From contig VGJF01000005.1 of assembly GCA_016867585.1 (NCBI GenBank), positions 1-34,087 on the forward strand: a DNA stretch of 34,087 bases, read 5' to 3'. This document shows, piece by piece, positions 2,032 through 30,725 of the stretch (positions are counted from its first letter, which is position 1; every line of letters starts with the position of its first letter). The DNA is from Candidatus Aminicenantota bacterium (GTDB lineage: Bacteria; Acidobacteriota; Aminicenantia; Aminicenantales; UBA4085). The translations under genes and the position numbers were made by a program. The notes beneath the pieces were generated by a model. The model was given only the letters and a program-made list of their open reading frames with translations. It was not told where the DNA came from and did no database searches.

Positions 2032-3699
2032 ATGTACCCCGAGTTTATGCACGACTCCCTGAAAAAGGTCGAGGCCACCCGCGCCCGCCGGATCGAGCTC
2101 GAGCGGTCGGGGAAGAACGTCTTCCCGCCCATGTCGGCCGAGGAGAGGGAGGACGTCCTCAAAAAATTCCATCCGGACTACAAGGCCGATTCCCGGCGGA
2201 CGATCAGGGTGGGGCCGAACAAGGGGGAGGTCCTGACGACCGAGGTCGCGGACATGCTCGAGTCCCACACCCGGATCGGCGCGGCTATGTTCGACCTGTC
2301 GTCCCCGGATTATGAGACCGACCTTCTCATCGTCGGCGGCGGGGGGGCGGGCTGCGCGGCGGCCATCGTCGGACGGGAGCATGGGACGAAGTCGATCATC
2401 TCGACCAAGCTCCGGCTCGGGGACGCCAATTCGATGATGTCCCAGGGAGGGATGCAGGCCGCGGTCACGGCCAAGGACTCCCCGACGATCCACTACCTGG
2501 ACGCCCTGGGCGGCGGCCATTTCGACAACAAGGCGGACCTTGTCAGAGCCCTGACCGAGGACGGACCCGAGGTCGTCAAGTGGCTGGAGGATTTGGGGGT
2601 CGTCTGGGACAAGAATCCCGACGGATCGATGTACGTCCTCCACGGCGGCGGGACGTCGCGGAAGCGGATGCACTCCTGCCGGGACTACACGGGGGCGATC
2701 ATCATGCGGACGCTCATGGACGAGGTCCGCAACCATCCCGACGACATCCAAATCCTGGAGTTCATGCCCACGATCGAGCTCTTCCTCGACGAAAAGGGCC
2801 GGTGCGCCGGCGGCGTCCTCTATAACCTGGAGACCGAGGAGTACTTCACGGTCAAGGCCAAGGCCGTCATCATCGCCACGGGCGGCTACGGCCGGCTCCA
2901 TATCCGGGGCTTCGACACGACGAACCATTACGGGGCGACCGGGGACGGACTGGTCATGGCCTACCGGGCCGGGGCCAATCTCCTGTACATGGATTCGGTC
3001 CAGTACCATCCGACAGGGGCCTCGTTCCCGGAGCAGATCGCCGGATTCCTGATCACCGAGAAGATCCGGGGGGCGGGCGGACAGCCGCTGAACAAGTCCG
3101 GGGAGCTGTTTGTCTGGCCCCGGGAGCCGCGGGACGTCGAGAGCGCGGCCTTCATCCGCGAATGCCTGGAGCGGCAGAACGGCATCCAAACGCCGAGCGG
3201 CCGCTGGGGCGTCTGGCTCGATTCCCCGGTCATCGAGGTCATCCAGGGGGCGGGCTACATCAACAAGAACTTCCCGGCCATGTACCGGCAGTTCATCCGC
3301 TACAACATCGACATCACCAAGGAGCCGATGCTCGTCTACCCCTCGCTCCATTACCAGAACGGCGGGGTCGAGATCAACGACCGCTGCGAGACGAACGTCA
3401 AGGGCCTCTACGTCGCCGGCGAGGCGTCCGGGGGCGTCCATGGCCGGAACAGGCTCATGGGGAATTCCGTCCTCGACTACAACGTCTTCGGCCGGCGGGC
3501 CGGCCGCTATGCGGCCGAATATGCCCGGACGGCGGTCCTGGGGAAGCTTTCCCTGGACCATCTTACGGCCTACGAGGAGGAGCTCCAAAAGGCCGGGATC
3601 GTCACCGACCGGATCGCGCCCGTCCTCCTGCCGTCGTATACGCCCGAGGAGGTCAAGAAGCGCCAGTTCACGGCCCACTACGAGGGGACGCTCCGATGA
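2032..3699 (+). CDS. FAD-binding fumarate reductase/succinate dehydrogenase flavoprotein-like subunit
   Basis: Rossmann GGGGAGCAAAI, QYHPTGASFPEQ, TEKIRGAGGQPLN, HYQNGGVEIN, GEASGGVHGRNRLMGNSVLDYNVFGRRAG. ATG at 2032; the longer ORF start (1807) overlaps the upstream gene. Confidence 0.9.
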   Translation: MYPEFMHDSLKKVEATRARRIELERSGKNVFPPMSAEEREDVLKKFHPDYKADSRRTIRVGPNKGEVLTTEVADMLESHTRIGAAMFDLSSPDYETDLLIVGGGGAGCAAAIVGREHGTKSIISTKLRLGDANSMMSQGGMQAAVTAKDSPTIHYLDALGGGHFDNKADLVRALTEDGPEVVKWLEDLGVVWDKNPDGSMYVLHGGGTSRKRMHSCRDYTGAIIMRTLMDEVRNHPDDIQILEFMPTIELFLDEKGRCAGGVLYNLETEEYFTVKAKAVIIATGGYGRLHIRGFDTTNHYGATGDGLVMAYRAGANLLYMDSVQYHPTGASFPEQIAGFLITEKIRGAGGQPLNKSGELFVWPREPRDVESAAFIRECLERQNGIQTPSGRWGVWLDSPVIEVIQGAGYINKNFPAMYRQFIRYNIDITKEPMLVYPSLHYQNGGVEINDRCETNVKGLYVAGEASGGVHGRNRLMGNSVLDYNVFGRRAGRYAAEYARTAVLGKLSLDHLTAYEEELQKAGIVTDRIAPVLLPSYTPEEVKKRQFTAHYEGTLR

Positions 3700-11608: not shown

Positions 11609-13792
11609 ATGAAGTTCCCGAACTCCCGGTCCGGTCGGATCGTGGTCCTGGCCTCCCTTGCCGCGCTGGCGGGAGCGGCGACGCCGGTGCCGACCGCGGA
11701 TCATCGGGGGGCCCTCCCCGCCGCCGGGCAAACAGCCGACAGGCCGATCACGGCTCCCATCAATCCCGACCATATCAGCCCGCCGACGGACCGGTTCGGC
11801 TACAAGCCCCATCCCGTCGACTTGAGCCACATCGGATCCCCGGCGGCGATCTTGAGGGCGTTCGCTCTGCCCGCGAAGTTCGACTGGCGTGCCCTGGGCG
11901 GCGTGACCCCGGTCAAAAACCAGGGCGGCTGCGGCTCCTGCTGGGCGTTCGCCGCCCTCGGCGGCTTCGAGTCGCTCGTCCTTATCCGGAACGGACGGAT
12001 GGACGACTTTTCCGAGGAAAGCATCAAGGAGTGCAACTATTGGGCCCGGGGCTGCGGCGGGGGGAACGCTTTCGTTGCGGCCAATCATCTGACGACCTTC
12101 GGGACGGTCGACGAGATCTGCGATCCGTACCACGACCGAGACACCGGGATCTGCCGGAGCGCCTGTCCCCGCCTCAAGCAGGCCACGGGCTGGAAGCTCC
12201 TTTCCAAGGACACGACGGCGATCAAGACCGCTGTCTCCAACACCGGGCCCGTCTACACGACCCTCAACGCCTCGTTCCCGGGATTCTCGGCTTACGACGG
12301 GACGACCGTCCTCCACCATGCCGGCCTCGAGCCTCCGAATCATGCCGTCGTCATCGTCGGCTGGGACGACACCCTTGTCCATGCCGGCGGGCAAGGGGCC
12401 TGGATCTGCAAGAACAGCTGGGGGACGAACTGGGGCGCCCAGGGCTACTTCGCCATCGCCTACGGCTCCGCCCGAGTCGGCGAGAACTCCTCCTACTTCG
12501 ACGATTTTAAGGCTTACGATTACCGCGAGATGGCCGGCACACTCTATCATTACGACGAGGCCGGCTGGCATTTCTCGATGGGCTTCTACGGCTCTGAGAC
12601 GGCCTACGGCCTGGTCAAGTTCACGGCCGGCCACGACGACCTCCTCACGGCCGTCGATTTCTGGGCGACCGACGACGCGAGCACCTACACGGTCGAAATC
12701 TACGACGATTTCGACGGCGTCACGCCCTCGAACCGGCTCTTCGGCCCCAAGGATACGGCCTGCGCTTTGGCCGGGTATTACTCCGTTCCCCTCGATACCC
12801 CGGTTTGGCTGGCCAAGGGCAACGATTTCTATGTCGTCGTCAAGGGCCGATGCTCCGGCTATACCTATCCCATGGCCGTCGACGGCTTCGCGCCCACGGA
12901 ATCGAACAAGACCTACCTGAGCCGGAACCTATCGGGGCCCTGGTACGAGATGGGAAGCTACGGCTATGACGTCTCGATCCGGGCCCGGACGCGCTATCAT
13001 CAGCCCGTCTTCGCCGGCCGCGACTTCTCCGGCGACGGCTTGGCCGACATCGCCGTCTGGCGGCCGTCGGACGGCAACTGGTTCGTCCGGGGAGGGACGG
13101 TCCAGAATTGGGGGATCGACGGCGATATCCCGACGAACGGCGACTACGACGGGGACGGCAAGGCGGATCTGGCCGTCTGGCGGGCATCCGTCGGCTATTG
13201 GTTCATCCGGAAGTCGGGGGGGGCGACGGATCTCATCCCGTGGGGGACGGGAGGCGACATTCCCGTGCCGGGCGATTACGACGGGGACGGCAAGGCGGAT
13301 GCCGCCGTCTGGAGGCCCTCCTCGGGCCATTGGTTCCTCCGCCTCTCGGGGGGCGGCCTGCCGGTCATCTTCTGGGGCCAAAACGGGGACATCCCCCTTC
13401 CGGGCGACTACGACGGGGACGGCCGGGCCGACCCCGCGGTCTGGCGCCCCGCAGCCGGCACCTGGTTCATCAACTATTCGAACGGGGGCCATGGGGTCTT
13501 TCAGTGGGGGAAGATCGGCGATTTCCCGGCGCCGGCCGATTTCGACGGCGACGGGAAGTGCAATCTGGCCGTCTGGCGGTCGTCGGACGGCTCTTGGCAC
13601 ATCAAGTACGCCAAGGGGGGAACAGCCGCCATTTTTTGGGGAACAGCGGGCGACATCCCCGTCCCGGCCCGCTACTATGGATTCGAGGGAGCAAACATCG
13701 CCGTCTGGCGGCCGTCCGACGGAAACTGGTATGTCCAGGGGCAGGGGAACACGCCCTGGGGGATGAGGGGGGACATTCCGCTCGTCCGCTGA
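11609..13792 (+). CDS. secreted papain-family (C1A) cysteine protease with lectin-like middle region and C-terminal DxDGDGxAD repeats
   Basis: Signal peptide; PVKNQGGCGSCWAFAALGGFES, NHAVVIVGWDD, CKNSWGTNWGAQGYF; six C-terminal repeats of the GDYDGDGKADLAVWRP type. Confidence 0.9.
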   Translation: MKFPNSRSGRIVVLASLAALAGAATPVPTADHRGALPAAGQTADRPITAPINPDHISPPTDRFGYKPHPVDLSHIGSPAAILRAFALPAKFDWRALGGVTPVKNQGGCGSCWAFAALGGFESLVLIRNGRMDDFSEESIKECNYWARGCGGGNAFVAANHLTTFGTVDEICDPYHDRDTGICRSACPRLKQATGWKLLSKDTTAIKTAVSNTGPVYTTLNASFPGFSAYDGTTVLHHAGLEPPNHAVVIVGWDDTLVHAGGQGAWICKNSWGTNWGAQGYFAIAYGSARVGENSSYFDDFKAYDYREMAGTLYHYDEAGWHFSMGFYGSETAYGLVKFTAGHDDLLTAVDFWATDDASTYTVEIYDDFDGVTPSNRLFGPKDTACALAGYYSVPLDTPVWLAKGNDFYVVVKGRCSGYTYPMAVDGFAPTESNKTYLSRNLSGPWYEMGSYGYDVSIRARTRYHQPVFAGRDFSGDGLADIAVWRPSDGNWFVRGGTVQNWGIDGDIPTNGDYDGDGKADLAVWRASVGYWFIRKSGGATDLIPWGTGGDIPVPGDYDGDGKADAAVWRPSSGHWFLRLSGGGLPVIFWGQNGDIPLPGDYDGDGRADPAVWRPAAGTWFINYSNGGHGVFQWGKIGDFPAPADFDGDGKCNLAVWRSSDGSWHIKYAKGGTAAIFWGTAGDIPVPARYYGFEGANIAVWRPSDGNWYVQGQGNTPWGMRGDIPLVR
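13021..13789 (+). repeat. in-frame 132-nt (44-aa) tandem repeats within protease gene
   Basis: Equivalent repeat positions at 13141, 13273, 13405, 13537 and 13669 are exactly 132 nt apart; the first unit (13021) is 120 nt. Confidence 0.9.
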
Positions 13793-13859
13793 TGGAGGAT
13801 TTTCGGTCACGTCTAAGGCCGGGCCGCTGAGCTCAAGATTCGCGAATAGTCTTATAGGC

Positions 13860-13885
13860 GGGAGGCCGGGCTCATCCGGCCTCTC
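13860..13885 (+). terminator. hairpin after protease gene (weak T tract)
   Basis: GAGGCCGG-GCTCAT-CCGGCCTC stem-loop followed by gttgtat. Confidence 0.6.
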
Positions 13886-14030
13886 GTTGTATCGCCCCTG
13901 AGATAGGCGATTCACCTTAGGTCAAGCGAGAAAGCTCTTCCGAATATCGCCGCTTCCGAGGGAAGATTTCATCCTACACTTTAAGAGCAAAATGGGGTCA
14001 TGGATCGGCAATTTTGGCGACCGAAAAAAC

Positions 14031-14059
14031 TTGACATATTCTGTGAAATGGTGAATTAT
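14031..14059 (+). promoter_or_regulatory. promoter TTGACA-N17-AATTAT
   Basis: Hexamers at 14031-14036 and 14054-14059, then aaggaggag RBS before ATG 14084. Confidence 0.65.
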
Positions 14060-14083
14060 TTCCCGTGAAAAGGAGGAGACAAC

Positions 14084-15654
14084 ATGAAGATCATCAAATC
14101 TCTGTCCGTCGCCTTTGTCCTGTTCGTCGTATTCTCGATTTCAGCTTACGCCTACGACTACCTGATGGCCGACAGGTTGGCGGGCGGGACTCAGTCTTAT
14201 ATCGCGGCGACAACCCAAATCACGACCCTGACGGCGGGGGACTGGGATGAGGGCTATTACGACATGGCTCTCGGGGCGAATTACCAGTTCTATTTCTACG
14301 GGAAGAAGGTCACCCATCTCCGGATCTGGACCAACGGCTATGTGACCTTCGGATTCGGGAGCGCTCCTTCGGACTCAACCACTGATTGGACCAACGATCC
14401 GATGCCCGACACGTCAGCCCCACATGGATTTGCGGCGCCGTGGTGGGATGATTGGGATCTAAGTCTCGGAGGCGGGATTTATTACACATCATTCAACGTT
14501 GCGGGCTATTACTATACATTGATCGAATGGCGAGGAGTTCCTCATATCGCGGGGGGGGGGCCGTTTCCTTCGAAGTTTTCTTTTGCTCGCATACCCACAC
14601 CAATATCCCGGACTGGATCATGTTCTTATATAATGATGTCGTCGTCGGGAGCGCGATCTACGATTACGGCGCCAGCGGAACGGTGGGGGTTGAGCATCCG
14701 GCCGGGACGCAGTCGCGAAAGTATTCTTACAACGAGGCCTATCTGTCGACGTCCGATATTATCTATTTCGTCCCCTTCGTTCCCATCTACGGCGGAACGC
14801 AGCAGCTGTGGGGCCAGGCCAATTTTCCGTGCATCACCCTCTGGCGTCCGGACGGCGGAAACTGGTTCTATCGTGAACAAAACGGTTCGACGCATGGGCC
14901 GTGGCAATGGGGAACGAGAGGCGACGTCCCTCTGCCGGGCGACTATGACGGTGACGGCGACGCCGACGAGTGCGTTCTGAGGCCGACGACCTATCATTGG
15001 TTCTGTTTCGCTCCCGCCTTCACGATCCAGTTCGGGAAAATGGGCGACATCCCCGTCCCGGCCGATTTCGACGGCAACGGGACGATTGACCTGGCGGTCT
15101 TCCGTCCGAATCCGGGAACCTGGTTCGTCTACCATCGCGACACGGGAGTGTCGGAGGTCATCAACTGGGGGACGCAGGGCGACATCCCGCTGCCGGCCGA
15201 CTACGACAACGACGGCAAGGCGGACTGCGCGGTCTTCCGTCCGTCGACGAACACGTGGTTCATCCGGAAATCCTCGAACACGGCGCAGGCCTGGATCATG
15301 ACCTTCGGCACGGACGGGGACATCCCGATGCCGACCAATATCCAGACTACGGCCTACGCCACGCTGAGCGTCTTCCGTCCCTCGGACGGAAACTGGTACA
15401 CTTACAATCAGAGCACCGCGGCGTGGGGAGTTCCGTTCAATTGGGGCCAGAACGGGGACGTGGCCGCGCCGGGCGACGAGAACGGGGGAGGGATGACGGA
15501 CGCGGCCGTCTTCCGTCCCCAGGAAGGCCGCTGGTTCATCCGAAGTGCGATATCCTTCCCGGTGGTGGTGAACTATGGAACGATAGGCGACATCCCGATG
15601 TTCCGGAGGAATTTTCTGAACTGGACGCCGCCGAGCGGCCATCCGGACCATTGA
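14084..15654 (+). CDS. secreted repeat protein, nidogen-like N-terminal region plus DxDGDGxxD repeats; reading frame broken at a 10-G tract
   Basis: Frame 1 MKIIKSLSVAFVLFVVFSISAYAYDY...IEWRGVPHIAGGG (ORF 14084-14980) joins frame 2 AVSFEVFFCSHTHTNIPDWIMFLYNDVVVGS... (ORF 14452-15654) at G10, 14551-14560. Confidence 0.8.
14551..14560 (+). repeat. poly-G homopolymer (10 G)
   Basis: atcgcGGGGGGGGGGccg; longest G tract I noticed in the window. Confidence 0.95.
14815..15621 (+). repeat. in-frame ~41-45-aa repeats, same family as in 13021-13789
   Basis: GDYDGDGDADECVLRP, ADFDGNGTIDLAVFRP, ADYDNDGKADCAVFRP, followed by degenerate units; spacing about 123-135 nt. Confidence 0.85.
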
Positions 15655-15694
15655 TTCCGGATCGCTGATTCGAGAATTACGGATAGCCCTTCAG

Positions 15695-15732
15695 GCGGGA
15701 GGCCGGGTTCGCCCGGCCTCCCGCTTTTTTTT
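15695..15732 (+). terminator. strong intrinsic terminator
   Basis: 13-bp perfect stem GCGGGAGGCCGGG-TTCG-CCCGGCCTCCCGC followed by 8 T. Confidence 0.95.
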
Positions 15733-15771
15733 AAAAACGCCAAGAACGTCCATCCGAAACGAAATTTTCGA

Positions 15772-15809: not shown

Positions 15810-17921
15810 ATGAACAAGTTAGCGATAAGCCGAGCCCCCCTCGCTTTTTTCCTAGGGCTGGCTCTCGCCGCCTGGAGCTGTCAAAGTTTAAGTCCGAATT
15901 ATCGTCGAGGCGCGGAGGCGGAACTCAACAAGTTGTGGGAGGAAGCCGTCAAGTTTTATGAAGGGGCGTATCTCGATTCTCCCCGAAATCCCCTCTACCG
16001 GGCCGCCCTCCAGCGGGCGAAGGTCGGCGCCGGCTTTTTCTACCTCCAAGAAGCCCGGAAGCTCCTCAGCCTCGATAAGATGGAGGAAGCCGAGTCCGCC
16101 TACGCCAAAGCCCTGCGATATCATCCCTGGGATGCCGCGATTCCCGCCGCAGCCCGGAAATCGCTTTCCGAGAAGCCCGAGGAGCGTCCCCGAAGGGAGA
16201 CGATCGAGTTTCCGATCAAGCTCAAGGCCAAGGACGAATCCCTCGAGTTGAATTTTCCCGTTGAAACGAGCCTGAGGTCGATTTTTTTCGCCGTAGGGAG
16301 GGCTTTGGGCATCAACATACTTTTCGACGAGGATTACCATGACGTTCCCGTCGCCATCGACCTCAGCGGCATGTCCGCCGAAGAGGCCTTGCGGACGCTC
16401 TGCCGGGCCGGCCGAAATTTTCATCGCCTTGTGGACGAGCGGACGGTCATCGTCGTGCCCGACCAGCCGCTCAAGAGGACCCTTTACGAGGTCAATGCCG
16501 TCAAGACCTTCTATCTGTCCAACATCAGCGCTCCGGAGGTCATGGCTTCGCTGTCCCAGCTGCTGCGCACTCCGACCAAGGCGCCGTCGATCAGCGCCGA
16601 CCAGGCGCTCAATTCCTTGACGGTCCGCGACACTGCCGCGGTGATCGACCTCGCCGGACGGCTGCTCCGGGCCTGGGACAAGCCGAAGGGCGAGGTCATC
16701 GTCATGGTCGAGATCATGGAAGTCTCCCGGACCCGGCTCCGCGAGCTCGGCCTTGCCTTCGACTCGGCCGTCGTCGGCCTCGAGTCCAAGCCCGCGGCTT
16801 CGGGCGGGGCGACGGGCGTGGGATGGTTCCCGCTCCAAAGCCTCGGCCTTGGCCGGGCCGAAAATTACGCCGTCAGCCTGCCTGTCGGCTATCTCCATCT
16901 CCTCGAGACCGACATCGATACGAAATTGATCGCCAAGCCCTGGCTGCGCGTGGCCGGGGACGAGGAGATCCGCGAGTTCGTCGGCCAGAAGGTTCCCGTC
17001 CCGAAGACGACGTATCAGCCCTTCGGCGCCGGCGACGTCTCCGGGTCGTCGATGGTGAGCTACGACTATCAGGACGTCGGCCTCGACATCAAGATCACCC
17101 CGAAGGTTCATTTCGAGAACGAGATCGAGCTTTCGGCGGAGATCAAGGTCGCGGCCTTGGGCGGCCCGGGCATCGCCGGCATCCCGATCATCCTTAACCG
17201 GGAGGTCAAAGGGGTCATGCGGCTCCGCGGGGGAGAAACCCAGATCATCTCCGGCCTCTTCCGCGATGAGGAGCGGAGGGCGGCCAGGGGCATTCCCGTC
17301 CTCAAGGATTTTCCGGGCATCGGCCGGCTCTTCGGGGCCGAGGAGGCGGCGATCGAGCAGACCGACGTCCTCATCGCCCTGACGCCGTTCATCCTCCGGT
17401 CCATCCCCCTCGGGGCGGAGGACGAAGAACCGCTCTGGATCGAGGCCGCGCCGCTGACGCCCGGCCTTGGGGGAGAAGAAGCCGCTCCGACGGCCGAAGG
17501 CGAAGGCCGGAGCGCCGTCATCCTCTCGCCGTCGCGGATCGAGGTCCGTCCGGGAGGCGAATTCCAAGTGAGCGTCGATGTCCGGCCGTCGGGAGACGTG
17601 GGCACCATGTCGTTGACCCTTCGTTTCCATCCCAAGATCTTGTCCCTCAAGGACGTCGCGGAAGGGGCCGTGTTGAAGGAGGTGGGGGACAACGTTCCTT
17701 TATCGAAGAACATCGATAACGAAGCCGGCTCGTGTACCGTGGGCTTCACGAGCCCCTATCTCCACAAGGGCCTCAATGAACCGGGGACGCTGGCCGTCCT
17801 GAGGTTCGAATCCAAGGCCGCCGGGGAAAGCGCGATCTCAATCGAGAGCATCAGCCTGATCAGCCCTTCCGGAACCCCCTGGCCCGTCCAGGCGACGCCG
17901 GCGAGAGTCGTCGTCCGTTGA
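15810..17921 (+). CDS. secretin-family (GspD/PilQ-like) outer-membrane protein with N-terminal TPR-like region and C-terminal cohesin-like domain
   Basis: Signal peptide; TPR-like EAESAYAKALRYHP; STN/N-domain-like LRSIFFAVGRALGINILFDED; secretin core VGLDIKITPKVHFENEIELSAEIKVAAL...GGETQIISGLFRDEERRAARGIPVLKDFPGIGRLFG...TDVLIALTPFILR; C-terminal SPSRIEVRPGGEFQVSVDVRPSGDVGTMSLTLRFHPKILSLKDV...GTLAVLRFESKAAG. Confidence 0.88.
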   Translation: MNKLAISRAPLAFFLGLALAAWSCQSLSPNYRRGAEAELNKLWEEAVKFYEGAYLDSPRNPLYRAALQRAKVGAGFFYLQEARKLLSLDKMEEAESAYAKALRYHPWDAAIPAAARKSLSEKPEERPRRETIEFPIKLKAKDESLELNFPVETSLRSIFFAVGRALGINILFDEDYHDVPVAIDLSGMSAEEALRTLCRAGRNFHRLVDERTVIVVPDQPLKRTLYEVNAVKTFYLSNISAPEVMASLSQLLRTPTKAPSISADQALNSLTVRDTAAVIDLAGRLLRAWDKPKGEVIVMVEIMEVSRTRLRELGLAFDSAVVGLESKPAASGGATGVGWFPLQSLGLGRAENYAVSLPVGYLHLLETDIDTKLIAKPWLRVAGDEEIREFVGQKVPVPKTTYQPFGAGDVSGSSMVSYDYQDVGLDIKITPKVHFENEIELSAEIKVAALGGPGIAGIPIILNREVKGVMRLRGGETQIISGLFRDEERRAARGIPVLKDFPGIGRLFGAEEAAIEQTDVLIALTPFILRSIPLGAEDEEPLWIEAAPLTPGLGGEEAAPTAEGEGRSAVILSPSRIEVRPGGEFQVSVDVRPSGDVGTMSLTLRFHPKILSLKDVAEGAVLKEVGDNVPLSKNIDNEAGSCTVGFTSPYLHKGLNEPGTLAVLRFESKAAGESAISIESISLISPSGTPWPVQATPARVVVR

Positions 17922-17958
17922 GCGTGAGTGAGGGAAAGGAAGGGAGGCCTTGCCGACC

Positions 17959-19377
17959 ATGAGCGAGATCCCCGCCCTGGAAGTCTCCCTCCTGGCCGTC
18001 GCCGGGGGGATTTTCGCCTACGTCTTTTTCGTGAAAAAGCCGGAGTGGGGACTCGTCGTCCTGTTTCTCGAGGCCATCGTGGGGGGGAACGGCCGCTGGC
18101 TGGAGCTCCTCGGCGGAACCGTCACGCCGCGCTACATCCTGATCGTCTCCGTGGCGGCCGGCTTCCTGGTCCGCCATCTCGTCCTCAGGCAGTCCCTCGC
18201 GGGGTCGTATCTCTTTCTCCGGCCACTCGTCGTTTTCGGCTTGGTCCTCGCCGTCGGCGTCGTCCTCGCCCTTCGACGGGGGAATCCCGACCCGGTCAGC
18301 GAGCCCCAGGTCTGGCTTTACCTTCTGACGTATTTCCTGATCGTCGATGTCTATAAGGACAAGGGATTTCCCTTCTGCCTCTTGAAAGTCGTCTTCGTCA
18401 GCGTGGCCGTCATGGCCGCGATCACCCTGGGGATGATGGCCGCGGCGAACCTCAATCCGGGCCGCTTTTTTGCCGTCTACCTGAAAACACCCTTGGAGGC
18501 GATGCGGATCACCGTCCCTTGGCTTCAGGGGACGCATCTCTACTACGTCTTCTGGGGGAATTCGTCGCTGGCCGGGCTGACGCTCTGCGTCACCGTCTTC
18601 TGGATCTCAGCCTTGAAGCGCGGCGCCGAGCCGGTCCTGTCCCGGCGAGGCCTCAAGCTCGTCGGCCTTCTTTCGGTCCTGACGATGGTTTTCAGCATGA
18701 CCCGGGGCACCTGGGGGCAGCTCGTCCTCATGGCCGGATTGCTGGCCGGGAGCTACGTCCTAAGGCGCCGCGTGCCGCTTAAATCCGTCCTGGCGGCGGT
18801 CCTCCTTTTTGCCCTCGGCCTGGCGGCGGTCGCCTCGGTGGAGCCGCTCCGCCGAGGCATCGTCGTCCGGGCTTCGACCCTCCTGGCCGGAGAGTCGGGG
18901 AAGCTCGACCGGTCGGATTCGATCGTCCTCAAGTCCATGGAAACGAGGCACCTCGTCCGGGCGATCGGCGCCCGTCCCGTCCTCGGCTACGGCTTCGGGA
19001 TCGGCGATTACGGCGAATTCGGGGAGGATCTCAAGGGCCACAGCCGGTTCCACAATTTCTTCCTTTATTTTGCCCTGAAGACCGGCTTCGTCGGCCTCCT
19101 CGGCCTGCTCGTCCTGCTCGGGTCGTTCGTCTACGCCGCGGCGACGGCCCATCTGAAGCTCCGGGATGCGTGGCCGCTTTCCCGAGCCCTGTTCATCGGG
19201 TGGATCTTCGGCCTGGCGGGGATCGCCTTCGCCAGCCTGTCCAATCCCCACATGGGAACGCCCGCGTTCATCGCCGCTTTCGCCCTGGGTATGGCTTTCG
19301 TCGACCTCGCCGTCCGTCGGCCCGAACTCGCCTCGGGAGGCGGCGCGTCTCCTTCCGCCGAAACATCATGCGATTGA
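17959..19377 (+). CDS. O-antigen ligase/polymerase (Wzy-like) multi-TM protein
   Basis: Many hydrophobic segments; ARPVLGYGFGIGDYGEFGEDLKGHSRFHNFFLYFALKTGFVGLLGLL typical of the WaaL/Wzy periplasmic region. Confidence 0.78.
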   Translation: MSEIPALEVSLLAVAGGIFAYVFFVKKPEWGLVVLFLEAIVGGNGRWLELLGGTVTPRYILIVSVAAGFLVRHLVLRQSLAGSYLFLRPLVVFGLVLAVGVVLALRRGNPDPVSEPQVWLYLLTYFLIVDVYKDKGFPFCLLKVVFVSVAVMAAITLGMMAAANLNPGRFFAVYLKTPLEAMRITVPWLQGTHLYYVFWGNSSLAGLTLCVTVFWISALKRGAEPVLSRRGLKLVGLLSVLTMVFSMTRGTWGQLVLMAGLLAGSYVLRRRVPLKSVLAAVLLFALGLAAVASVEPLRRGIVVRASTLLAGESGKLDRSDSIVLKSMETRHLVRAIGARPVLGYGFGIGDYGEFGEDLKGHSRFHNFFLYFALKTGFVGLLGLLVLLGSFVYAAATAHLKLRDAWPLSRALFIGWIFGLAGIAFASLSNPHMGTPAFIAAFALGMAFVDLAVRRPELASGGGASPSAETSCD

Positions 19378-20375
19378 CCGTTTGCCTCGTCAATTTCAAC
19401 TCCGGGCCTCTCCTGGCCAGATGCCTCGATAGCCTGGAACCGGCTTCCTCCGGCCTCGAATACGAGGTCCTCGTGGTCGACAACGGCTCCCGCGACGGCA
19501 GCGCCGCCGCCGCCGAGGGCCGGGCCCGGACGCGGCTCCTTCGGAACGGATTCAACGCCGGCTTCGCGGCCGCCAACAACCTTGCCTTCCGCGAGGCCCG
19601 GGGCCGCGACTTCATGCTGCTCAACGCCGACACGGAAGTCCTCCCCGGAGCCCTGGAGGCCCTTGTCCGGTTCGCCGAGGCGCATCCGCGGGCCGGCCTG
19701 ATCGCCGCCCGGCTCTTGAATTTCGACGGCACGCCCCAAAAGGGCTTCAACGTCCGGCGTTTTCCGACGTTCTCGGCCCTGACGTCCCAAGTCCTCCTTC
19801 TCGACGAGATCTGGCCGGGAAATCCCTGGACGCGGGCGGCCGGGGCCTTGGACATGGATGACGAGCGGCCGCAGCGGGTCGAGCAGCCTGCGGCCTCGGC
19901 CCTCTTCTTCAGGCGCGAGACCTGGAGCGAAGTCGGGGGGTTCGATCCGGATTTCGCCAACTGGTTCAACGACGTCGACCTTTGCCGCCGGATCGCGGCC
20001 GCCGGCTGGGAGATTTGGTATTGCCCGGAGGCCAGAGTCCTTCACCACGGCGGGAAGGGAGCCGTCTCCCGGACTCACGCGGACGTCATGAAGGAATATT
20101 ACCGGAGCGAGAGGGCGTATATCCTGAAACATCATGGCCTCTGGGCCTATCTCGCGGTGAGCCTCGCCGTGACCGGCGGCATGGCCCTCCGGCTGGCCGC
20201 CTCGGCGGGCCGGCGTCGCGTCCTCGGCTCGACCTACCGGCTGAACGACCGGACCGAGGTGAGCGGCTACCGGGCCGCCGTCCGGGCCGTCATCGCCGAC
20301 ACGGCCACCGGGTTGATCGTCGGAGCGGCCCGGCGGAATAGCCTTGCGGCGGGGATTCCCGGGGTGAAAAGGTAG
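19368..20375 (+). CDS. glycosyltransferase family 2 (rhamnosyltransferase-like)
   Basis: LTVCLVNFNSGPLLARCLDSL, EVLVVDNGSRDGS, NAGFAAANN, LLNADTEV, WFNDVDLCRRI. Confidence 0.88.
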   Translation: MRLTVCLVNFNSGPLLARCLDSLEPASSGLEYEVLVVDNGSRDGSAAAAEGRARTRLLRNGFNAGFAAANNLAFREARGRDFMLLNADTEVLPGALEALVRFAEAHPRAGLIAARLLNFDGTPQKGFNVRRFPTFSALTSQVLLLDEIWPGNPWTRAAGALDMDDERPQRVEQPAASALFFRRETWSEVGGFDPDFANWFNDVDLCRRIAAAGWEIWYCPEARVLHHGGKGAVSRTHADVMKEYYRSERAYILKHHGLWAYLAVSLAVTGGMALRLAASAGRRRVLGSTYRLNDRTEVSGYRAAVRAVIADTATGLIVGAARRNSLAAGIPGVKR

Positions 20376-20381
20376 GCGGCC

Positions 20382-21404
20382 GTGGACCTGAGCATCGTTA
20401 TCGTCTCCTTCAACACGCGTGAAACGACGCAGCGCTGCCTGGAGACGATTTTCCGGGCGACGCGCGACGTCGACTTCGAGGTCATCGTCGTGGACAACGA
20501 CTCCCGCGACGGGAGCGCCGCGATGATCGCCGGCGCGTTCCCGGCCGTCCGCCTCATCCGAAACGACCGAAACGCCGGATTCGGGGCGGCGCAGAACATC
20601 GGGCTGGGGGCGGCGCGCGGCGAGTTCCTCCTGGTGATGAACTCGGACGTCTTTTTCGTCGGGAACGCCGCCCGCCGGATGGTCGACATCCTGAGACAGG
20701 GGCCGGCCGACGTCGGCGCGGTCGGGCCCGAAATCCTCAATCCCGACGGGACCTGGGCCCCCTCCGCCCGGCGGGCCGTCCAGCCGGGGCCCGTCCTCGT
20801 CCTCAAGGGGATCAACCGGCATTTCCCTTTCCGGGCCTCGCTACCCGAGGACCTCATGCGCCGCCGGGCCGGCTTCCTCCTTTTTCGATGGCACGACAAC
20901 TACCAGCCGCAGGAGACAAGCCGGGAGGCCGATTGGGTGGACGGGATGTGCGTCCTCTTCCGCCGGGCCGCCTTGGAAGAATCGGGCCTCTTCGATGAGC
21001 GGTATTTTTTCGATTACGAGATCGTCGACCTCTCCATGCGCCTCCGCCGTCGGGGCTGGCGGATCGTCTTCGACCGCCGGGCCAGCGTCGTCCACGAGGT
21101 CCATTCGAGCCGTTCCCTGAATCCCCGGATTCTCGTCGAGACCCACCGCAGCGAATTGCTCTTCTACGCCGATTACGCCCCGCAAAACTATCGGCTTCTC
21201 ATTGGGACCTTCCGGCTTCTTGTCGGAATCAGAAAAGTCCTCCTGAATCTGGGACGAAGGGGCGTGAAGGGGAGCCGGCAGGCGTCCGAAAGGAGGATGA
21301 TTTACGACCGCATCCTCGCTTTGAGCCGGGAGATGAGCTCGCCGGCCGCGCTTCCCAAGCCGAAGATCCCCTCTCTTACCCCGCTCCCCAAGGAAACAGC
21401 ATGA
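20382..21404 (+). CDS. glycosyltransferase family 2
   Basis: LSIVIVSFNTRETTQRCLET, EVIVVDNDSRDGS, NAGFGAAQN, VMNSDVFF, DYEIVDLSMRL; GTG start. Confidence 0.88.
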   Translation: MDLSIVIVSFNTRETTQRCLETIFRATRDVDFEVIVVDNDSRDGSAAMIAGAFPAVRLIRNDRNAGFGAAQNIGLGAARGEFLLVMNSDVFFVGNAARRMVDILRQGPADVGAVGPEILNPDGTWAPSARRAVQPGPVLVLKGINRHFPFRASLPEDLMRRRAGFLLFRWHDNYQPQETSREADWVDGMCVLFRRAALEESGLFDERYFFDYEIVDLSMRLRRRGWRIVFDRRASVVHEVHSSRSLNPRILVETHRSELLFYADYAPQNYRLLIGTFRLLVGIRKVLLNLGRRGVKGSRQASERRMIYDRILALSREMSSPAALPKPKIPSLTPLPKETA

Positions 21405-22531
21405 CACCCGTGAACAAAGTCCTCGTCATCCTCGGAACGCGCCCGGAGGCGGTCAAGCTGGCCCCCGTCGTCCACGAGCTCAGGCGTCGTCCCGGGAGAT
21501 TCCGGACGGTCGTTTGCGCCACGGCCCAGCACCGCCGGATGCTGGACGAATTCCTGGACCTCTTCGATATCTCCCCCGACCACGACCTCGACATCATGAA
21601 GCCCGGCCAGAGCCTGGCCGAGGTCACGACGAGGGCCCTGGCGGGTCTCGACCGCGTCGTCCGGGAAGAGCGGCCGGACGACCTCCTCGTCCAGGGAGAC
21701 ACGACCACGGCCTTCTGCGGGGCCCTGGCCGGATTCTACCACAAGGTCCGGGTAGGCCACGTCGAGGCCGGCCTGCGGACCGCGGACAAGTCCGCTCCCT
21801 ACCCGGAAGAGATCAACCGCCGCCTCATCACTCCGTTGGCCGACCTCCATTTCGCCCCGACCGAAACGGCCAGGAAGGCTCTCCTGGCGGAGGGGGTTCC
21901 CGCCGATTCCATCCATGTCACCGGGAACACGGTCATCGATGCCCTCCACTGGATGCGCCGTAAGCTCAGGACCCATCCGCCCCGGCTTCCCGCCGGCTTG
22001 GCCGAGGCCATGCGCCGAAAGAGGGTCGTTCTGGTCACCGGACACCGGAGGGAGAGTTTCGGGGAGGGATTCCGGAACATCTGCGAGGCCATCCTCGAGA
22101 CGGCGGAGGCCTTTGCCGATGTCCTTTTTGTCTACCCCGTCCATTTAAATCCTAATGTCCGGGGCCCGGTCTACGCCCTCCTCGGACGGCATCCGCGGGT
22201 CAAGCTCATCGAGCCGTTGCCCTACGCCCCGTTCATCTCGCTGATGAGCCGGGCGACCCTCCTTTTAACCGACTCCGGCGGGGTGCAGGAAGAGGGGCCG
22301 TCGCTCGGAAAGCCGGTCCTGGTGATGAGGGAGACGACCGAGAGGCCGGAGGGCGTCGCCGCGGGGAACGCCCGGCTCGTCGGGACGACGCGGCAGAAAA
22401 TCATTGAAAATTTGGCCGATTTGCTCCAAAATTCTTCCCGGCTCGAGGCCATGGCCTCGGCCCGCAATCCCTATGGGGACGGGCGGGCAGCCAAGAGGAT
22501 CGTCGAGATCCTCGGTCGGGAAGCCTCGTAA
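21401..22531 (+). CDS. wecB: UDP-N-acetylglucosamine 2-epimerase (non-hydrolysing)
   Basis: VLVILGTRPEAVKLAPVV, VQGDTTTAFCGALAGFY, VGHVEAGLRT, PYPEEINRRL, TGHRRESFGEGF, LLTDSGGVQEEGPSLGKPVLVMRETTERPE; ATGA overlap with upstream stop. Confidence 0.95.
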   Translation: MTPVNKVLVILGTRPEAVKLAPVVHELRRRPGRFRTVVCATAQHRRMLDEFLDLFDISPDHDLDIMKPGQSLAEVTTRALAGLDRVVREERPDDLLVQGDTTTAFCGALAGFYHKVRVGHVEAGLRTADKSAPYPEEINRRLITPLADLHFAPTETARKALLAEGVPADSIHVTGNTVIDALHWMRRKLRTHPPRLPAGLAEAMRRKRVVLVTGHRRESFGEGFRNICEAILETAEAFADVLFVYPVHLNPNVRGPVYALLGRHPRVKLIEPLPYAPFISLMSRATLLLTDSGGVQEEGPSLGKPVLVMRETTERPEGVAAGNARLVGTTRQKIIENLADLLQNSSRLEAMASARNPYGDGRAAKRIVEILGREAS

Positions 22532-22553
22532 ATCACCGGGAAAGGCGGCGATC

Positions 22554-23474
22554 ATGGCGACAATATTGGTCACGGGAGGGCGCGGATTCATCGGGACGAA
22601 CCTGACGGCCGAGCTCCGGTCCCGGGGACACGACGTCTGGACCTCGGACATCCTCCAGGGGGAGGACCCCCTCCATCTCAAGGCCGACACCGGCGTCTAC
22701 CAGCAGATGGACGCGGTCTTCCGGAAGCGGAGGTTCGATTTCGTCTTCCACCTGGCGGCCGAATACGGCCGCTGGAACGGCGAGGACCACTACGAGAACC
22801 TTTGGCGGACGAACGTCACCGGAACGAAAAATGTCCTCCGCCTCCAGGAGCAGCACCGCTTCAAGATGATCTTCTTCTCGAGCGCCGAGGTCTACGGCGA
22901 CTACGACGGGCTGATGAGCGAGGACGTCATGGAGCGGATCCCCATCAAGCAGATGAACGACTACGCCATCTCGAAATGGGCCGGAGAGCTCCAGTGCCTG
23001 AACCACGCGGCGATGTTCGGGACGGAGACCGTCCGAGTCCGGCCGGTCGGCTGCTACGGGCCGCACGAGTACTACAGCCCCTACCGGGGCGTCATCCCGA
23101 TCATGGTCTACCACAGCCTCATGGGCCGGCCGTTCCCCGTCTACCGGGGCCACAAGAGGATCTTCGATTACGTCGAGGACACCTGCCGGACCTTTGCCAA
23201 CATCGTCGAGAACTTCATCCCGGGGGAGGTCTACAACGTCGGCGGGCGGGAAGACTGGGTGACGAGCATCGAGGACCTGGCGGCCCTCGTCCTCGAGACG
23301 ACCGGGGCCCCGGCCCGCCTGGCGGAATACAAGGGCGAGGAAAAGTTCACGACCCGGGTCAAGGTCGTCGATTTTTCGAAAGCCCGCCGGGACCTCCGCC
23401 ACGGCCCCAAGGTCGATATCCGCGAGGGGATCCGCCGCTATACGGCCTGGGCCCGCAAGGTCTACGGGGCCTGA
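22554..23474 (+). CDS. NAD-dependent epimerase/dehydratase (SDR)
   Basis: ILVTGGRGFIGTNLTAEL, FHLAAEYGRWN, SSAEVYGDYD, YAISKWAGE. Confidence 0.88.
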   Translation: MATILVTGGRGFIGTNLTAELRSRGHDVWTSDILQGEDPLHLKADTGVYQQMDAVFRKRRFDFVFHLAAEYGRWNGEDHYENLWRTNVTGTKNVLRLQEQHRFKMIFFSSAEVYGDYDGLMSEDVMERIPIKQMNDYAISKWAGELQCLNHAAMFGTETVRVRPVGCYGPHEYYSPYRGVIPIMVYHSLMGRPFPVYRGHKRIFDYVEDTCRTFANIVENFIPGEVYNVGGREDWVTSIEDLAALVLETTGAPARLAEYKGEEKFTTRVKVVDFSKARRDLRHGPKVDIREGIRRYTAWARKVYGA

Positions 23475-23493
23475 GAGGGAAAGGGAGGATCCA

Positions 23494-24534
23494 TTGGACG
23501 CCTATAAAGCCACCTGCGAGGGGAAGACGATTCTCGTCACCGGCGGGGCCGGGGCGATCGGCTCGAATCTCGTCCGCGAATTGGCCGGACTCAAAGCCAG
23601 GACGGTCATCGTCCTGGACGACCTGTCGGCCGGCTCGGAGTGGAACGTCCCCTCGCTGCCGAACGTCCTTTTCGTCAAGGGATCGGTCACGGACGAGGCC
23701 GCCCTCAAGAGGATCTTCGCCCTGAGGCCTTCGGTCGTCTTCCACCTGGCCGCCTTCTTCGCCAACCAGAACTCCGTCGATTATCCCCAGCACGACCTGA
23801 TGGTCAACGGGCTGGGGACGCTGCTCGTGCTCCAATACGCCCAGCTCTCGGGGTCGCCGCGGGTCGTCTACGCCTCGTCGGGCTGCTCGATCTACGGCTC
23901 GGCGGCGCCGCTTCCGCTCAAGGAAGACTTCATGTCGATGCACCTCACGACGCCCTACCAGATCACGAAGATGCTGGGCGAGCTCTACGGGAATTTCTTC
24001 CATCATCACTACGGCCTGCCGGTGGTCAAGACGCGGTTTTTCAATTCCTACGGGCCGGGGGAGGTCCCGGGACAGTACCGGAACGTCATCCCGAATTTCA
24101 TCTTTCGGGCCCTTCTCGGCCTTCCCCTGCCGTTCACCGGGGAGGGGACGGAGACGCGCGACTTCACCTACGTCGTGGACATCGTCGACGCCCTCCTGCG
24201 GGCGGGCCATTTCGAGGAGGCCGTCGGGCGGGAGATGAACATCGCCTCGGGCCAGGAGATCCCGATCCTGGCCATGGCCGAGCGGGTCAACGAGCTCACG
24301 GGGAACAAGGCCGGGATCGTCCGGGCCGAGCGGCGCGTTTGGGACACGAAGAAGCGCCTCCTGGCCTCGATCGACCTGGCCCGGGAAATCCTCGGCTACG
24401 AGCCGAAGACGGACTTCGACGAGGGGCTGAAGGCGACGATCCGGTGGTTCAGGGACAACTGGGAGAACATCCGGAAGGAAGCGAAGTTCCCTCCCGGGAT
24501 GTCGGCCGCCGCCCATGGGATCACGGTCAAATAA
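23494..24534 (+). CDS. NAD-dependent epimerase/dehydratase (SDR), UDP-/GDP-sugar epimerase-like
   Basis: ILVTGGAGAIGSNLVREL, FHLAAFFANQNS, SSGCSIYGSA, YQITKMLGE, RDFTYVVDIVDALL; TTG start. Confidence 0.88.
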   Translation: MDAYKATCEGKTILVTGGAGAIGSNLVRELAGLKARTVIVLDDLSAGSEWNVPSLPNVLFVKGSVTDEAALKRIFALRPSVVFHLAAFFANQNSVDYPQHDLMVNGLGTLLVLQYAQLSGSPRVVYASSGCSIYGSAAPLPLKEDFMSMHLTTPYQITKMLGELYGNFFHHHYGLPVVKTRFFNSYGPGEVPGQYRNVIPNFIFRALLGLPLPFTGEGTETRDFTYVVDIVDALLRAGHFEEAVGREMNIASGQEIPILAMAERVNELTGNKAGIVRAERRVWDTKKRLLASIDLAREILGYEPKTDFDEGLKATIRWFRDNWENIRKEAKFPPGMSAAAHGITVK

Positions 24535-24552
24535 GCCGTCGGTCCTGCGACC

Positions 24553-25770
24553 GTGAAAACGCCATCGACTCTATGGTTCGTATCGGAAGTCTTCCATCCC
24601 GACGAAATTGGAACGGCTTTTTATATGACCGAACTGGCCGTCCATTTCGCCCGTTCCCGCCGCGTTGCCGTTCTCTGCGGGCTTCCGAAGTACAACGCCC
24701 GCGGCCGGGCCGTCCCTCGACTTGAGATCTGGAGAGGCGTCCGGGTTGAGCGCTGCCGGGATTCGACGCTCGACAAGAACCGCATGTCCCAGAGAATCCT
24801 GATGGTCTTCGTCTCGAGCATCTCGATTTTCGGCCGAGCCCTGCGCCGGTTTCGCCGGGGGGACAAAGTCCTCGTCGTCACCAGCCCGCCCCTCCTGCCG
24901 TTCCTCGTCCGCATCGCCTGCGCGGTCCGGGGAGCGCGCTGTCTTCTCCGCGTGGACGACGTCTACCCGGAGGTCTTTGTCGCCGCGGGAAACATGGCTC
25001 CCCGGAGCCTGGCGGTCAAGGTCCTCATCGGCCTCAATAAAGGGCTCTACCGGAGCATGGAGCGGATCGTCGTCCTGGGGCGGGACATGCAGGCCCTGGC
25101 CAGGGCGAAGGCCGGGCCCCGGTTTTCCAGGAAAATCATCGTCATCCCCAATTATGCCGACTTGGACCTCGTCCGCCCGGAGCCGAAAGCCTCGAATCCA
25201 CTTTTAAAGGCGCTCGGCCTCACCGGAAAGTTCGTCGTCCAGAACGCCGGCAACATGGGCCGGGCCCAGGCGATCGAAACGATGATCGGAGCCGCCGAGC
25301 GGCTCCGGGACCGCGCCGACATCCATTTCCTGTTCATCGGGGCCGGGGCGAAACGCCGCTGGATGGAGGACGAAGTCCGGGCGAAAGCCCTGACGAACGT
25401 CACCCTCCTCGGGGAGCGCCCCCGAACCGAGCAGAACGTTTTCCTCAACGCCTGCGACATCACGATAGTCTCCCTGCGGGCCGGGATGGCCGGGGCGGGG
25501 GTTCCCAGCCGGATGTACAATGTCATGGCCGCCGGCAAGCCGATCCTGGCCGTCGTCGAGGACCACTCCGAGCTCGCCCGGGTCGTCCGCGAAGAGGACA
25601 TCGGCTGGGTCGTACCGTCCGACGACCCGGGGCGGGCCGCCGAAGCCGTCGTCCGGGCGGCGCATGATCCTCAAACCGTCGCGGCCATGGGCTTCCGGGC
25701 GCGGAAGGCCGTCGAGGCTAAATACCATCCGGGCCGCTCCCTGGCCGAATACGAGCGCTTGTTCCGCTGA
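24553..25770 (+). CDS. glycosyltransferase family 4 (WbuB-like)
   Basis: LWFVSEVFHPDEIGTAFYMTELAVHFARS; FVVQNAGNMGRAQAIETMIGAAERL; GVPSRMYNVMAAGKPILAVVED; GTG start. Confidence 0.86.
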   Translation: MKTPSTLWFVSEVFHPDEIGTAFYMTELAVHFARSRRVAVLCGLPKYNARGRAVPRLEIWRGVRVERCRDSTLDKNRMSQRILMVFVSSISIFGRALRRFRRGDKVLVVTSPPLLPFLVRIACAVRGARCLLRVDDVYPEVFVAAGNMAPRSLAVKVLIGLNKGLYRSMERIVVLGRDMQALARAKAGPRFSRKIIVIPNYADLDLVRPEPKASNPLLKALGLTGKFVVQNAGNMGRAQAIETMIGAAERLRDRADIHFLFIGAGAKRRWMEDEVRAKALTNVTLLGERPRTEQNVFLNACDITIVSLRAGMAGAGVPSRMYNVMAAGKPILAVVEDHSELARVVREEDIGWVVPSDDPGRAAEAVVRAAHDPQTVAAMGFRARKAVEAKYHPGRSLAEYERLFR

Positions 25771-25863
25771 CGCCCGCGGTCACCCTGGCCTCCTTCCTCC
25801 GCAATGGCCGAGAAAATGCATTTTTGATAGAATGGGAGAGATTCAAGAAAGGCCGAGAGTTCC

Positions 25864-27771
25864 ATGCTCCAGTTCGCCGCGCTTTTCATCACCGCGCTGG
25901 CCATCTCCTTGCTGTCCACGCCGCTCGTCCGCAAGCTGGCCATACGGTGGGACGTCGTGGACCGCCCTTCCGACAGGAAAATCCACAAGACGCCCACTCC
26001 TCTCCTCGGCGGGATTCCCATCTTCCTGGGCTTCAACGTGGCCCTCGTTGCCGGCCTCATCCTCGACCCGACGGCCCTTCGCCAGGCGTATTCGGCCCAA
26101 TGGGCGATGTTTCTTCTCGCCCAGGTTCTCGTCCTGGGGATCGGAATCTACGACGACAAGCTCGGGGCCTCTCCCGGCGTGAAATTCCTCTTCCAGGTGG
26201 CGGCGGGGGCGAGCCTTCTTCTCGGCGGCTTCGGCATCCGGCTGTTCACTAATCCCTTCTCCGGAACGACGATTTCTCTCGGCGGCTGGTGGATTCCGGT
26301 CACTCTCCTTTGGTTCGTGGGCATCTCGAACGCCATCAACCTCATCGACGGCCTGGACGGCCTGGCGGCGGGAGTGGCGTTCCTGGCGAGCCTGACGATC
26401 TTCGCCATTTCCCTGTTCTACCAGAAAAGCGGCGTCTCGATCCTGGCCCTCATGCTCGTCGGGAGCGTCCTCGGCTTTCTCCGCTACAACTATCCTCCCG
26501 CCCGGATTTTCCTCGGGGACTCGGGGAGTCTCCTCCTCGGCCTTCTCCTGGCGGTCCTGTCCCTCGAGGGAACGCATAAAGGGGCGGTCGTGGTGACGGT
26601 CTTGGCGCCGATTCTCATCCTCGGGCTTCCGATCCTGGACACGGTCCTGGCGATGCTCCGGAGGCTGGCCAGGGCGTTCTCCCGCGCTCCCCGGACGGGC
26701 GGGAAGACGGCGCTCCGGGGGGCCGTCAGCCGCAGCTTTTCGATGTTTGAGGCCGACCGGGATCACATCCATCACCGCATCTTGAAGATCGGCTTCTCCC
26801 ACAAGCGGACGCTCTTCGTCCTCTACGGCGTTTGCGTCGCCTTGTGCATCCTCTCCTTCGTCGTCGTCTCGTGGAAAAACCTCAACATGGCCCTCTTCGT
26901 CGGGGCCGTCGTCGTGGCGATCTACATCGGGATCCGGAGGCTGCAGTACAAAGAGTTGAGATTCCTGCGGAACGGCATGTTCCTGAACATCCTCAACTTC
27001 CCGATTTTCAACAAGAAGATCTTCCAGGCCTTCGTCGACCTGATCTTCGTCGGGGGGGCCTTCTATCTGTCCAACCGGCTGACGTTCGGGCCGGCGGCCG
27101 CGGCCCCGGATTCGCTTTTTTTCCGGGCCTTCCCGGCCGTCCTCCTGATTAAAATCGTCGTCTTTTCCCTGGCCAAGCTCTACCGGGGGATGTGGAGGTA
27201 TTCCCGGGCTGAAGACCTGATCCGGATTGTCAAAGCCGTGTTCCTCTCCTCGGCGGCCTCCGTTCTTCTCCTCCGGTTCGTCTATCAAGCCGGCTTCGGC
27301 GACCATGTGATCCTCCACATCCTCGATTTCTATTTCGTCCTGACGCTCGTCAGCGGGGCGAGGGTTTCGTACAAGCTGTTTTTTCACTACTATCACCTCG
27401 AGGAATACAAAAAAAAGATCCTCATCTATGGAGCTGGGGCGAAGGGCGCCTCGCTGTTGGCTGAGACGGTTTCCCAGAACGGGGCCATGGGGCGGGTCCT
27501 TGGATTCCTGGACGACGACGCGAACAGGCACGGGACCGATCACATGGATCATCCGATTTTGGGCGGGCTGGACGGCCTGGAGAGCATCTTGGAGGCGACG
27601 CCGGTCGACGAGATCCAAATCGCGACGGGACCGCTCCCGGACGAAAAGCTCAAGCGCCTCAAGGCGATTTGCGCGGCGACCCGGACCGACCTGCGGGAGT
27701 TCGTTCCCCGTTCCCCGAGGCGAGGCGACCTGGCCGACGCCCCCTCCTCCAACCGGAGCGAATCCACGTAG
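25864..27771 (+). CDS. fusion: WecA/TagO-type polyprenyl-phosphate GlcNAc-1-P transferase + CapD/PglF-like N-terminal TM and nucleotide-binding region
   Basis: WecA motifs RKIHKTPTPLLGG, GIYDDKLGA, NAINLIDGLDGLAAG, RIFLGDSGSLLLG, DRDHIHHRIL; then LYRGMWRYSRAEDLIRIVKA and ILIYGAGAKGASLLAETV...VLGFLDDDANRHG. Confidence 0.88.
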   Translation: MLQFAALFITALAISLLSTPLVRKLAIRWDVVDRPSDRKIHKTPTPLLGGIPIFLGFNVALVAGLILDPTALRQAYSAQWAMFLLAQVLVLGIGIYDDKLGASPGVKFLFQVAAGASLLLGGFGIRLFTNPFSGTTISLGGWWIPVTLLWFVGISNAINLIDGLDGLAAGVAFLASLTIFAISLFYQKSGVSILALMLVGSVLGFLRYNYPPARIFLGDSGSLLLGLLLAVLSLEGTHKGAVVVTVLAPILILGLPILDTVLAMLRRLARAFSRAPRTGGKTALRGAVSRSFSMFEADRDHIHHRILKIGFSHKRTLFVLYGVCVALCILSFVVVSWKNLNMALFVGAVVVAIYIGIRRLQYKELRFLRNGMFLNILNFPIFNKKIFQAFVDLIFVGGAFYLSNRLTFGPAAAAPDSLFFRAFPAVLLIKIVVFSLAKLYRGMWRYSRAEDLIRIVKAVFLSSAASVLLLRFVYQAGFGDHVILHILDFYFVLTLVSGARVSYKLFFHYYHLEEYKKKILIYGAGAKGASLLAETVSQNGAMGRVLGFLDDDANRHGTDHMDHPILGGLDGLESILEATPVDEIQIATGPLPDEKLKRLKAICAATRTDLREFVPRSPRRGDLADAPSSNRSEST

Positions 27772-27777
27772 GCTGAG

Positions 27778-29826: not shown

Positions 29827-29838
29827 TTCGGCTAAAAT
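29815..29838 (+). promoter_or_regulatory. hairpin TTTAGCCG-CTGATT-CGGCTAAA overlapping possible -10 TAAAAT
   Basis: 8-bp perfect inverted repeat; TTGGAT-N17-TAAAAT. Confidence 0.4.
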
Positions 29839-29873
29839 AGCGTCTTCTCATCCCGAAAACGGACAAATCCGAG

Positions 29874-30725
29874 ATGCCTCCGGGAACCTCGATGCCGCGG
29901 CTTGGCGGGCTTGTCGACGCCATCCTCCGCCGGATTCTGAATCTTTTGAGGGCCCGGTTCTATACTTGGCGGGGGCCCGCCTACGGTCTCCGCGAGGCCG
30001 TCTTTTGGCCGAAATTGATCGATTACTGGATCCGGAACGCCGAAGCCTTGGCTTTCATCCTCCGGGAAGCGCCGGAGGGAGAGGTCGTCATCCTGGACAT
30101 CGGCTCCGGAGGGGGAGGACTCGGGGAGCTCGTCGGGCGGGCCGAGGACAGGCACCGGCTCCGGCTCATCGTCGCCGACTACGACAAGGCGAAGGTCGCC
30201 GCGGTAGCCCCGAGGCCTTTCATCGCCGGAAGGTTCGTCGCGGACGCGGCGCATCTGCCCCTCCGGACCGGGGCGGTCGATTTTGTCTCGTCGATCGACC
30301 TTCTCGAGCATCTCTCCCCCGACCGCCGAAGCGAGTTTCTTCGAGAGGCCCGGCGCGTCGCCCGGAGAGCCTCCATCCATCATTGCCCGATGGAAGGCGG
30401 GGAGGGGATGTTCCGGGCGGAAGAAGGAGACAAGCGGTTCCAGGACGCCCACCTCCGCCGGTTCAAGAGGCGGGAGGCGTTCACGGACGAGCATCTGGGC
30501 TGCCTGTATCCCGCTCCCGAGGAAGTCCGGAAAACATTGCCGGAGGCGACGATCCGCGGCGACCAGAATGCGGGAGTTTGGCTGAAATACATGATGTTCT
30601 ATCGTCGGCCCGTGGCGGGATATCTCGCCGGATTCGCCTACCTCATGCGCTGGAGGCGCAGGAACGGGAGGCCGCCGTTCTACAGCGCCTTCATCACCGC
30701 AGCCGGAGAGGGGAAGCCGCGGTGA
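29874..30725 (+). CDS. class I SAM-dependent methyltransferase
   Basis: VVILDIGSGGGGLGELVGRA, LRLIVADYDKAKV, VADAAHLPLRTGAVDFVSSIDLLEHLSPDRRSEFLREARRV. Confidence 0.85.
   Translation: MPPGTSMPRLGGLVDAILRRILNLLRARFYTWRGPAYGLREAVFWPKLIDYWIRNAEALAFILREAPEGEVVILDIGSGGGGLGELVGRAEDRHRLRLIVADYDKAKVAAVAPRPFIAGRFVADAAHLPLRTGAVDFVSSIDLLEHLSPDRRSEFLREARRVARRASIHHCPMEGGEGMFRAEEGDKRFQDAHLRRFKRREAFTDEHLGCLYPAPEEVRKTLPEATIRGDQNAGVWLKYMMFYRRPVAGYLAGFAYLMRWRRRNGRPPFYSAFITAAGEGKPR

Follow-up and report, generated by a model that had tools for sequence, protein, structure and literature searches.

A putative secreted-protein gene split at a ten-G run in a Candidatus Aminicenantota draft genome: probably an ordinary change of homopolymer length

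Positions 14084 to 15654 of the 34,087-nucleotide stretch of Candidatus Aminicenantota DNA analysed here (the window) present two overlapping open reading frames that resemble halves of one protein and meet, out of register, at a run of ten G residues. The question is whether this run is a switch that turns a surface protein on and off, a site of recoding, or a homopolymer whose length has changed in the cell or in the assembly. The window lies on contig 5 of a 3.45-Mb draft genome in 434 contigs, which is about 87% complete and is the one assembly of the species that was found.

The analysis of reading frames located the first frame, from ATG 14084, in frame 2 (mod 3) and the second, 14452-15654, in frame 1, an offset of -1. 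The upstream frame remains open, out of register, to 14980; both frames are thus open across the overlap and stop codons alone cannot place the frame change. Homology places it within about 12 bases, since the upstream frame matches relatives as far as ...WRGVPHI and the downstream frame matches them from AVSFEV.... Codon preference moves from the upstream to the downstream frame at the same tract, G10 at 14551-14560 of the forward strand, the window's longest homopolymer. Homology and codon preference agree with the first-pass annotation, made from the letters of the window, which had put the run at the exact point of a -1 frame change. A tract of this kind is not unusual as such (about 10 G/C runs of at least 10 are present across the genome); its coincidence with the frame change is beyond chance, since by our own estimate a position picked at random in a gene of 1.57 kb would coincide in roughly 1-2% of cases.

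On sequence grounds 14084-15654 is one gene, whose two frames would encode the halves of a single secreted protein with a signal peptide, a nidogen-like (NIDO) domain and FG-GAP-type repeats; the product is probably a cell-surface or matrix protein. All its features lie on the forward strand. A good AGGAGG-type ribosome-binding site (14073-14083, aaaaggaggagacaacATG) precedes ATG 14084 and is followed by a putative signal peptide (14084-14152, MKIIKSLSVAFVLFVVFSISAYA), assigned from hydrophobicity and the A-Y-A end rather than by a predictor; the leader of an ortholog described below is similar. Alignment to relatives assigns 14153-14550, in the frame of 14084, to the upstream part of the NIDO domain, and 14560-14805, in the other frame, to the downstream part of the same domain. 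The FG-GAP-like repeat array and the stop codon occupy 14806-15654, as indicated by a profile match to PF13517 (FG-GAP_3, 4.2e-10) and by end-to-end alignment with the ortholog. The array is paralogous to the tail of the protease encoded immediately upstream (11609-13792), a papain-family protein with a lectin-like domain and FG-GAP repeats. The out-of-register continuation of the upstream frame, 14561-14980, comprises about 140 codons in which no homology was found. A terminator-like hairpin followed by T8, read by eye, lies at 15690-15735 (ggcgggaggccgggttcgcccggcctcccgcttttttt).

The two frames were joined, for searching only, and the first 241 residues were used as the query. Of the 396 genomes of the phylum, 53 gave matches, the source genome among them, and many of these nidogen-like relatives continue across the junction in one open frame. 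The resulting alignment (A1) is continuous, with a motif, W-x-x-V-P-H-y-x-x-x-G-x-x-T-F-E/Q, at the position of the G run. The NIDO loop at this position is equally long in 21 of 22 relatives, and the codons or residues that relatives carry there are varied. Pfam NIDO (PF06119) was matched by 20 of the 23 aligned family members at E values up to 0.1; the window protein itself scored below the threshold, yet aligned throughout with the family. These results uphold two earlier proposals, namely that the two frames belong to one split secreted repeat protein and that its N-terminal region is nidogen-like.

A1 was used to search the class, and the complete gene was identified in one genome of the same order, Candidatus Aminicenantes MAG bin34 (CP070750.1). 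This ortholog is in a single frame and aligns over its full length (residues 2-508, 507 residues; 37.8% identity, E 1.5e-115). It shares with the split gene its domains and its neighbour, being located directly behind the same kind of papain-lectin-FG-GAP protease gene in the same two-gene order (L142/L149/L150); it differs in having one continuous frame, no G run and A+T-richer DNA. At the position of the run it reads CCG CAC GCC GGT AGC GTT CTT CCG GAT GCG, which contains no homopolymer. The comparison of the tract in related genomes that the first-pass annotation had recommended thus gives ordinary in-frame codons, both in this run-free ortholog and in the nidogen-like relatives.

The two-gene unit, protease followed by NIDO-FG-GAP secreted protein (11609-15654 in the window; L149 4888-8531), is common to distant Aminicenantes. 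The NIDO-FG-GAP gene was absent from all 11 of the closest family genomes searched, and the G+C content of the N-terminal half of the split gene is 0.54 vs a window average of 0.64. Both observations fit an accessory gene pair, which may possibly have been acquired. Downstream of the pair, 15810-17921 encodes a secretin-domain protein with a C-terminal cohesin domain, which heads a polysaccharide biosynthesis cluster (17950-33123) with two O-antigen-ligase/polymerase-like genes, a flippase-like gene, glycosyltransferases, a UDP-GlcNAc 2-epimerase and NAD-dependent epimerases.

Several accounts of the locus could be set aside. Two separate genes are ruled out by A1, in which the split falls inside one domain, and a chimeric contig joined at the run by the ortholog, which is homologous through both sides in order. 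An independent start for the downstream half lacks a convincing ribosome-binding site, judged by eye, before an in-frame start near the junction. An old pseudogene is ruled out by the downstream part, which contains no further stops or frameshifts.

Other G runs of the same genome were then considered. About 44 distinct runs of at least 9 G are present and 42 were examined, those on contigs C333 and C334 being left out. They were classified by inspection and by a simple score of codon preference for which the window served as training set, so that an individual run at a gene edge may be misclassified. By this classification 31 runs are in frame inside genes, 8 are intergenic or at the edge of a contig or gene, and 3 are at a frame break. 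In-frame runs of 10 G occur in the genes for DnaB, an HTH/M78 regulator, a glycosyltransferase and an FGE-sulfatase protein, and in-frame runs of 9 G in those for ribosomal protein L2, a class II aminoacyl-tRNA synthetase (aspartyl type), a penicillin-binding protein and HypD. Regulation by G runs on a genome-wide scale is ruled out, as most runs are in frame and the genes belong to every class.

All three frame-breaking runs are in accessory genes. Besides the split NIDO gene, these are the gene for an outer-membrane-like exported protein (MNKRLLGILSI...; L061 1772-2637, contig C331 about 2271-3136), split at a 10-G run with an offset of -1, and that for an IS21-type transposase (IstA-like; L020, contig C10 28244-28806), split at a 9-G run. 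Two family orthologs of the outer-membrane-like protein (G002, G011) are continuous and have no run; the sampled relatives of the transposase likewise read through, without the run. Frames are broken at 2 of 8 coding runs of 10 G and at 1 of about 26 coding runs of 9 G. The offset is -1 in all three genes, an agreement that may be accidental (1 in 4) or may reflect a shared cause such as undercounting.

Two further runs were observed. In a congener, a 17-base C run on contig C16 (L096 1501-1517) is located near what seems to be the 3' end of a peptidase-like gene (M20-type by eye) and is followed by an early stop, which makes it another candidate run-length lesion. On contig C237 of genome G001, an 11-base C/G run (L127 662-672) lies between antisense TPR-like sequence and a membrane protein; the two sides do not resemble parts of a single gene, and the join is a possible misassembly at poly-G.

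Overall, the data are best explained by a lineage-specific homopolymer whose length has changed in an ordinary way, through a real slippage indel or a miscount, a reading to which we give a probability of about 0.78. Runs in frame in core genes, together with an ortholog that has no run, point to homopolymer indels or miscounts of the ordinary kind. The higher frequency of breaks at longer runs, and their restriction to dispensable genes, is what neutral slippage or occasional miscounting would give. No second lesion, stop or frameshift, was found in the 365 codons downstream of G10, which suggests that the break is recent, reversible or present only on paper. The codon series of a glycine-rich loop would have become a pure G run in the Aminicenantes source lineage, and the run at its assembled length would set the two halves out of register. 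Where the change is real, we infer slippage of the G10 run: a replication-slippage indel in a dispensable gene would have become fixed or would be segregating in the population. Alternatively, the run would have been miscounted in a draft metagenome assembly. Selection would remove real breaks from core genes, and the longest runs would be counted worst. As assembled, the gene would yield a product with a signal peptide, most of the NIDO domain and an unrelated tail of 140 residues, without the repeat array.

The second of these two routes could account for the split by itself, the gene being intact in the cell and only the assembled or sequenced run being wrong. Illumina data can show spurious indels in homopolymers (PMC8808543), and the assembly is an 87% complete draft in 434 contigs. 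The constant loop length of the relatives fits an in-register reading of the split gene, the gene has no other lesion, and all three broken runs share the direction of the offset. Against this, the assembly counts about 31 further runs of 9-10 G in frame, several of them in essential genes. We regard a miscount alone as a serious possibility that falls somewhat short of even odds.

The first-pass annotation had also proposed a phase-variable switch, in which slippage of the G run would toggle a full-length surface protein at high frequency and selection would keep the run. Such a reading of the split gene is weakly supported by a pure run of 10 in the gene for an exported protein, at the very frame change, where a change by one unit would shift the frame. 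Two points in its favour count against an ordinary length change: the products of two of the three broken genes, the second being on C331, are exported, as is expected of phase-variable proteins, and the downstream half is so well preserved that an expressed state seems likely at least sometimes. The run itself is not conserved, being absent from the ortholog and from the relatives of the two other broken genes, and the family is varied in codons or residues at its position. Nor are such runs concentrated in contingency genes: runs of 10 G are in frame in the genes for DnaB, the regulator and the glycosyltransferase, those of 9 G in the genes for L2 and the tRNA synthetase, and a transposase gene shows the same kind of break as the genes for exported proteins. 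Within the window, enrichment was looked for in G8 words and none was found, the 5 observed being fewer than the 11.1 expected from dinucleotide shuffles. The absence of the gene from eleven family genomes also counts against a switch. The run-free ortholog, the in-frame runs of core genes and the broken transposase do not bear out a dedicated switch, which we consider unlikely. The wider proposal, that the products of the split gene and of the outer-membrane-like gene of C331 belong to a limited group of exported proteins that undergo phase variation in an uncultured, free-living lineage, is likewise unlikely. A literature search on phase variation and Acidobacteria found no direct report. 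If the switch were real, homopolymer phase variation would extend to the exported proteins of a candidate phylum that is not known to have been studied for it. More generally, a seeming contingency locus from a metagenome bin can be tested in two ways, by inspecting runs of equal length in the core genes of the bin and by asking whether orthologs carry the run.

Programmed recoding, by -1 ribosomal frameshifting or by slippage of RNA polymerase at the run to give short and full-length products, is highly improbable: the offset is -1, a G-GGG-GGG slip site is available in any phase of a 10-G run and the resulting protein would match the family in the length of its loop, but downstream RNA structure is absent (z +0.8 to +1.3), the frame change is not conserved in the continuous ortholog, the same run in dnaB would slip too, and known bacterial cases are mostly at A/T runs (PMC3711429).

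Comparison with known systems places the protein and the lesion separately. For the protein, the A1 family profile matched, in the PDB, the N-terminal region of RemA (8gl6_D, E 1.4e-21), the gliding adhesin of Flavobacterium. The likeness to RemA and to the Pfam NIDO proteins is that of the aligned family; the sequence of the split gene itself is below the NIDO threshold, and its C-terminal repeats are FG-GAP-like. For the lesion, the G/C-run contingency genes of Campylobacter and Neisseria, which vary by slipped-strand mispairing, are similar: there, too, a pure G run lies within the coding sequence for an exported protein, and the frame shifts when its length changes. In contrast, the Aminicenantes run is unconserved, belongs to a class of runs that is not enriched in the window and occurs in core genes as well, and is located in the middle of a single accessory gene. 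A closer likeness is to the singleton frameshifted genes of the GeneTack type, with an isolated frame transition at a homopolymer and unbroken orthologs, from which no distinguishing feature was found (PMC3711429). In that work such singletons are considered likely indel mutations or sequencing errors, and phase variation is kept for clusters with characteristic repeats.
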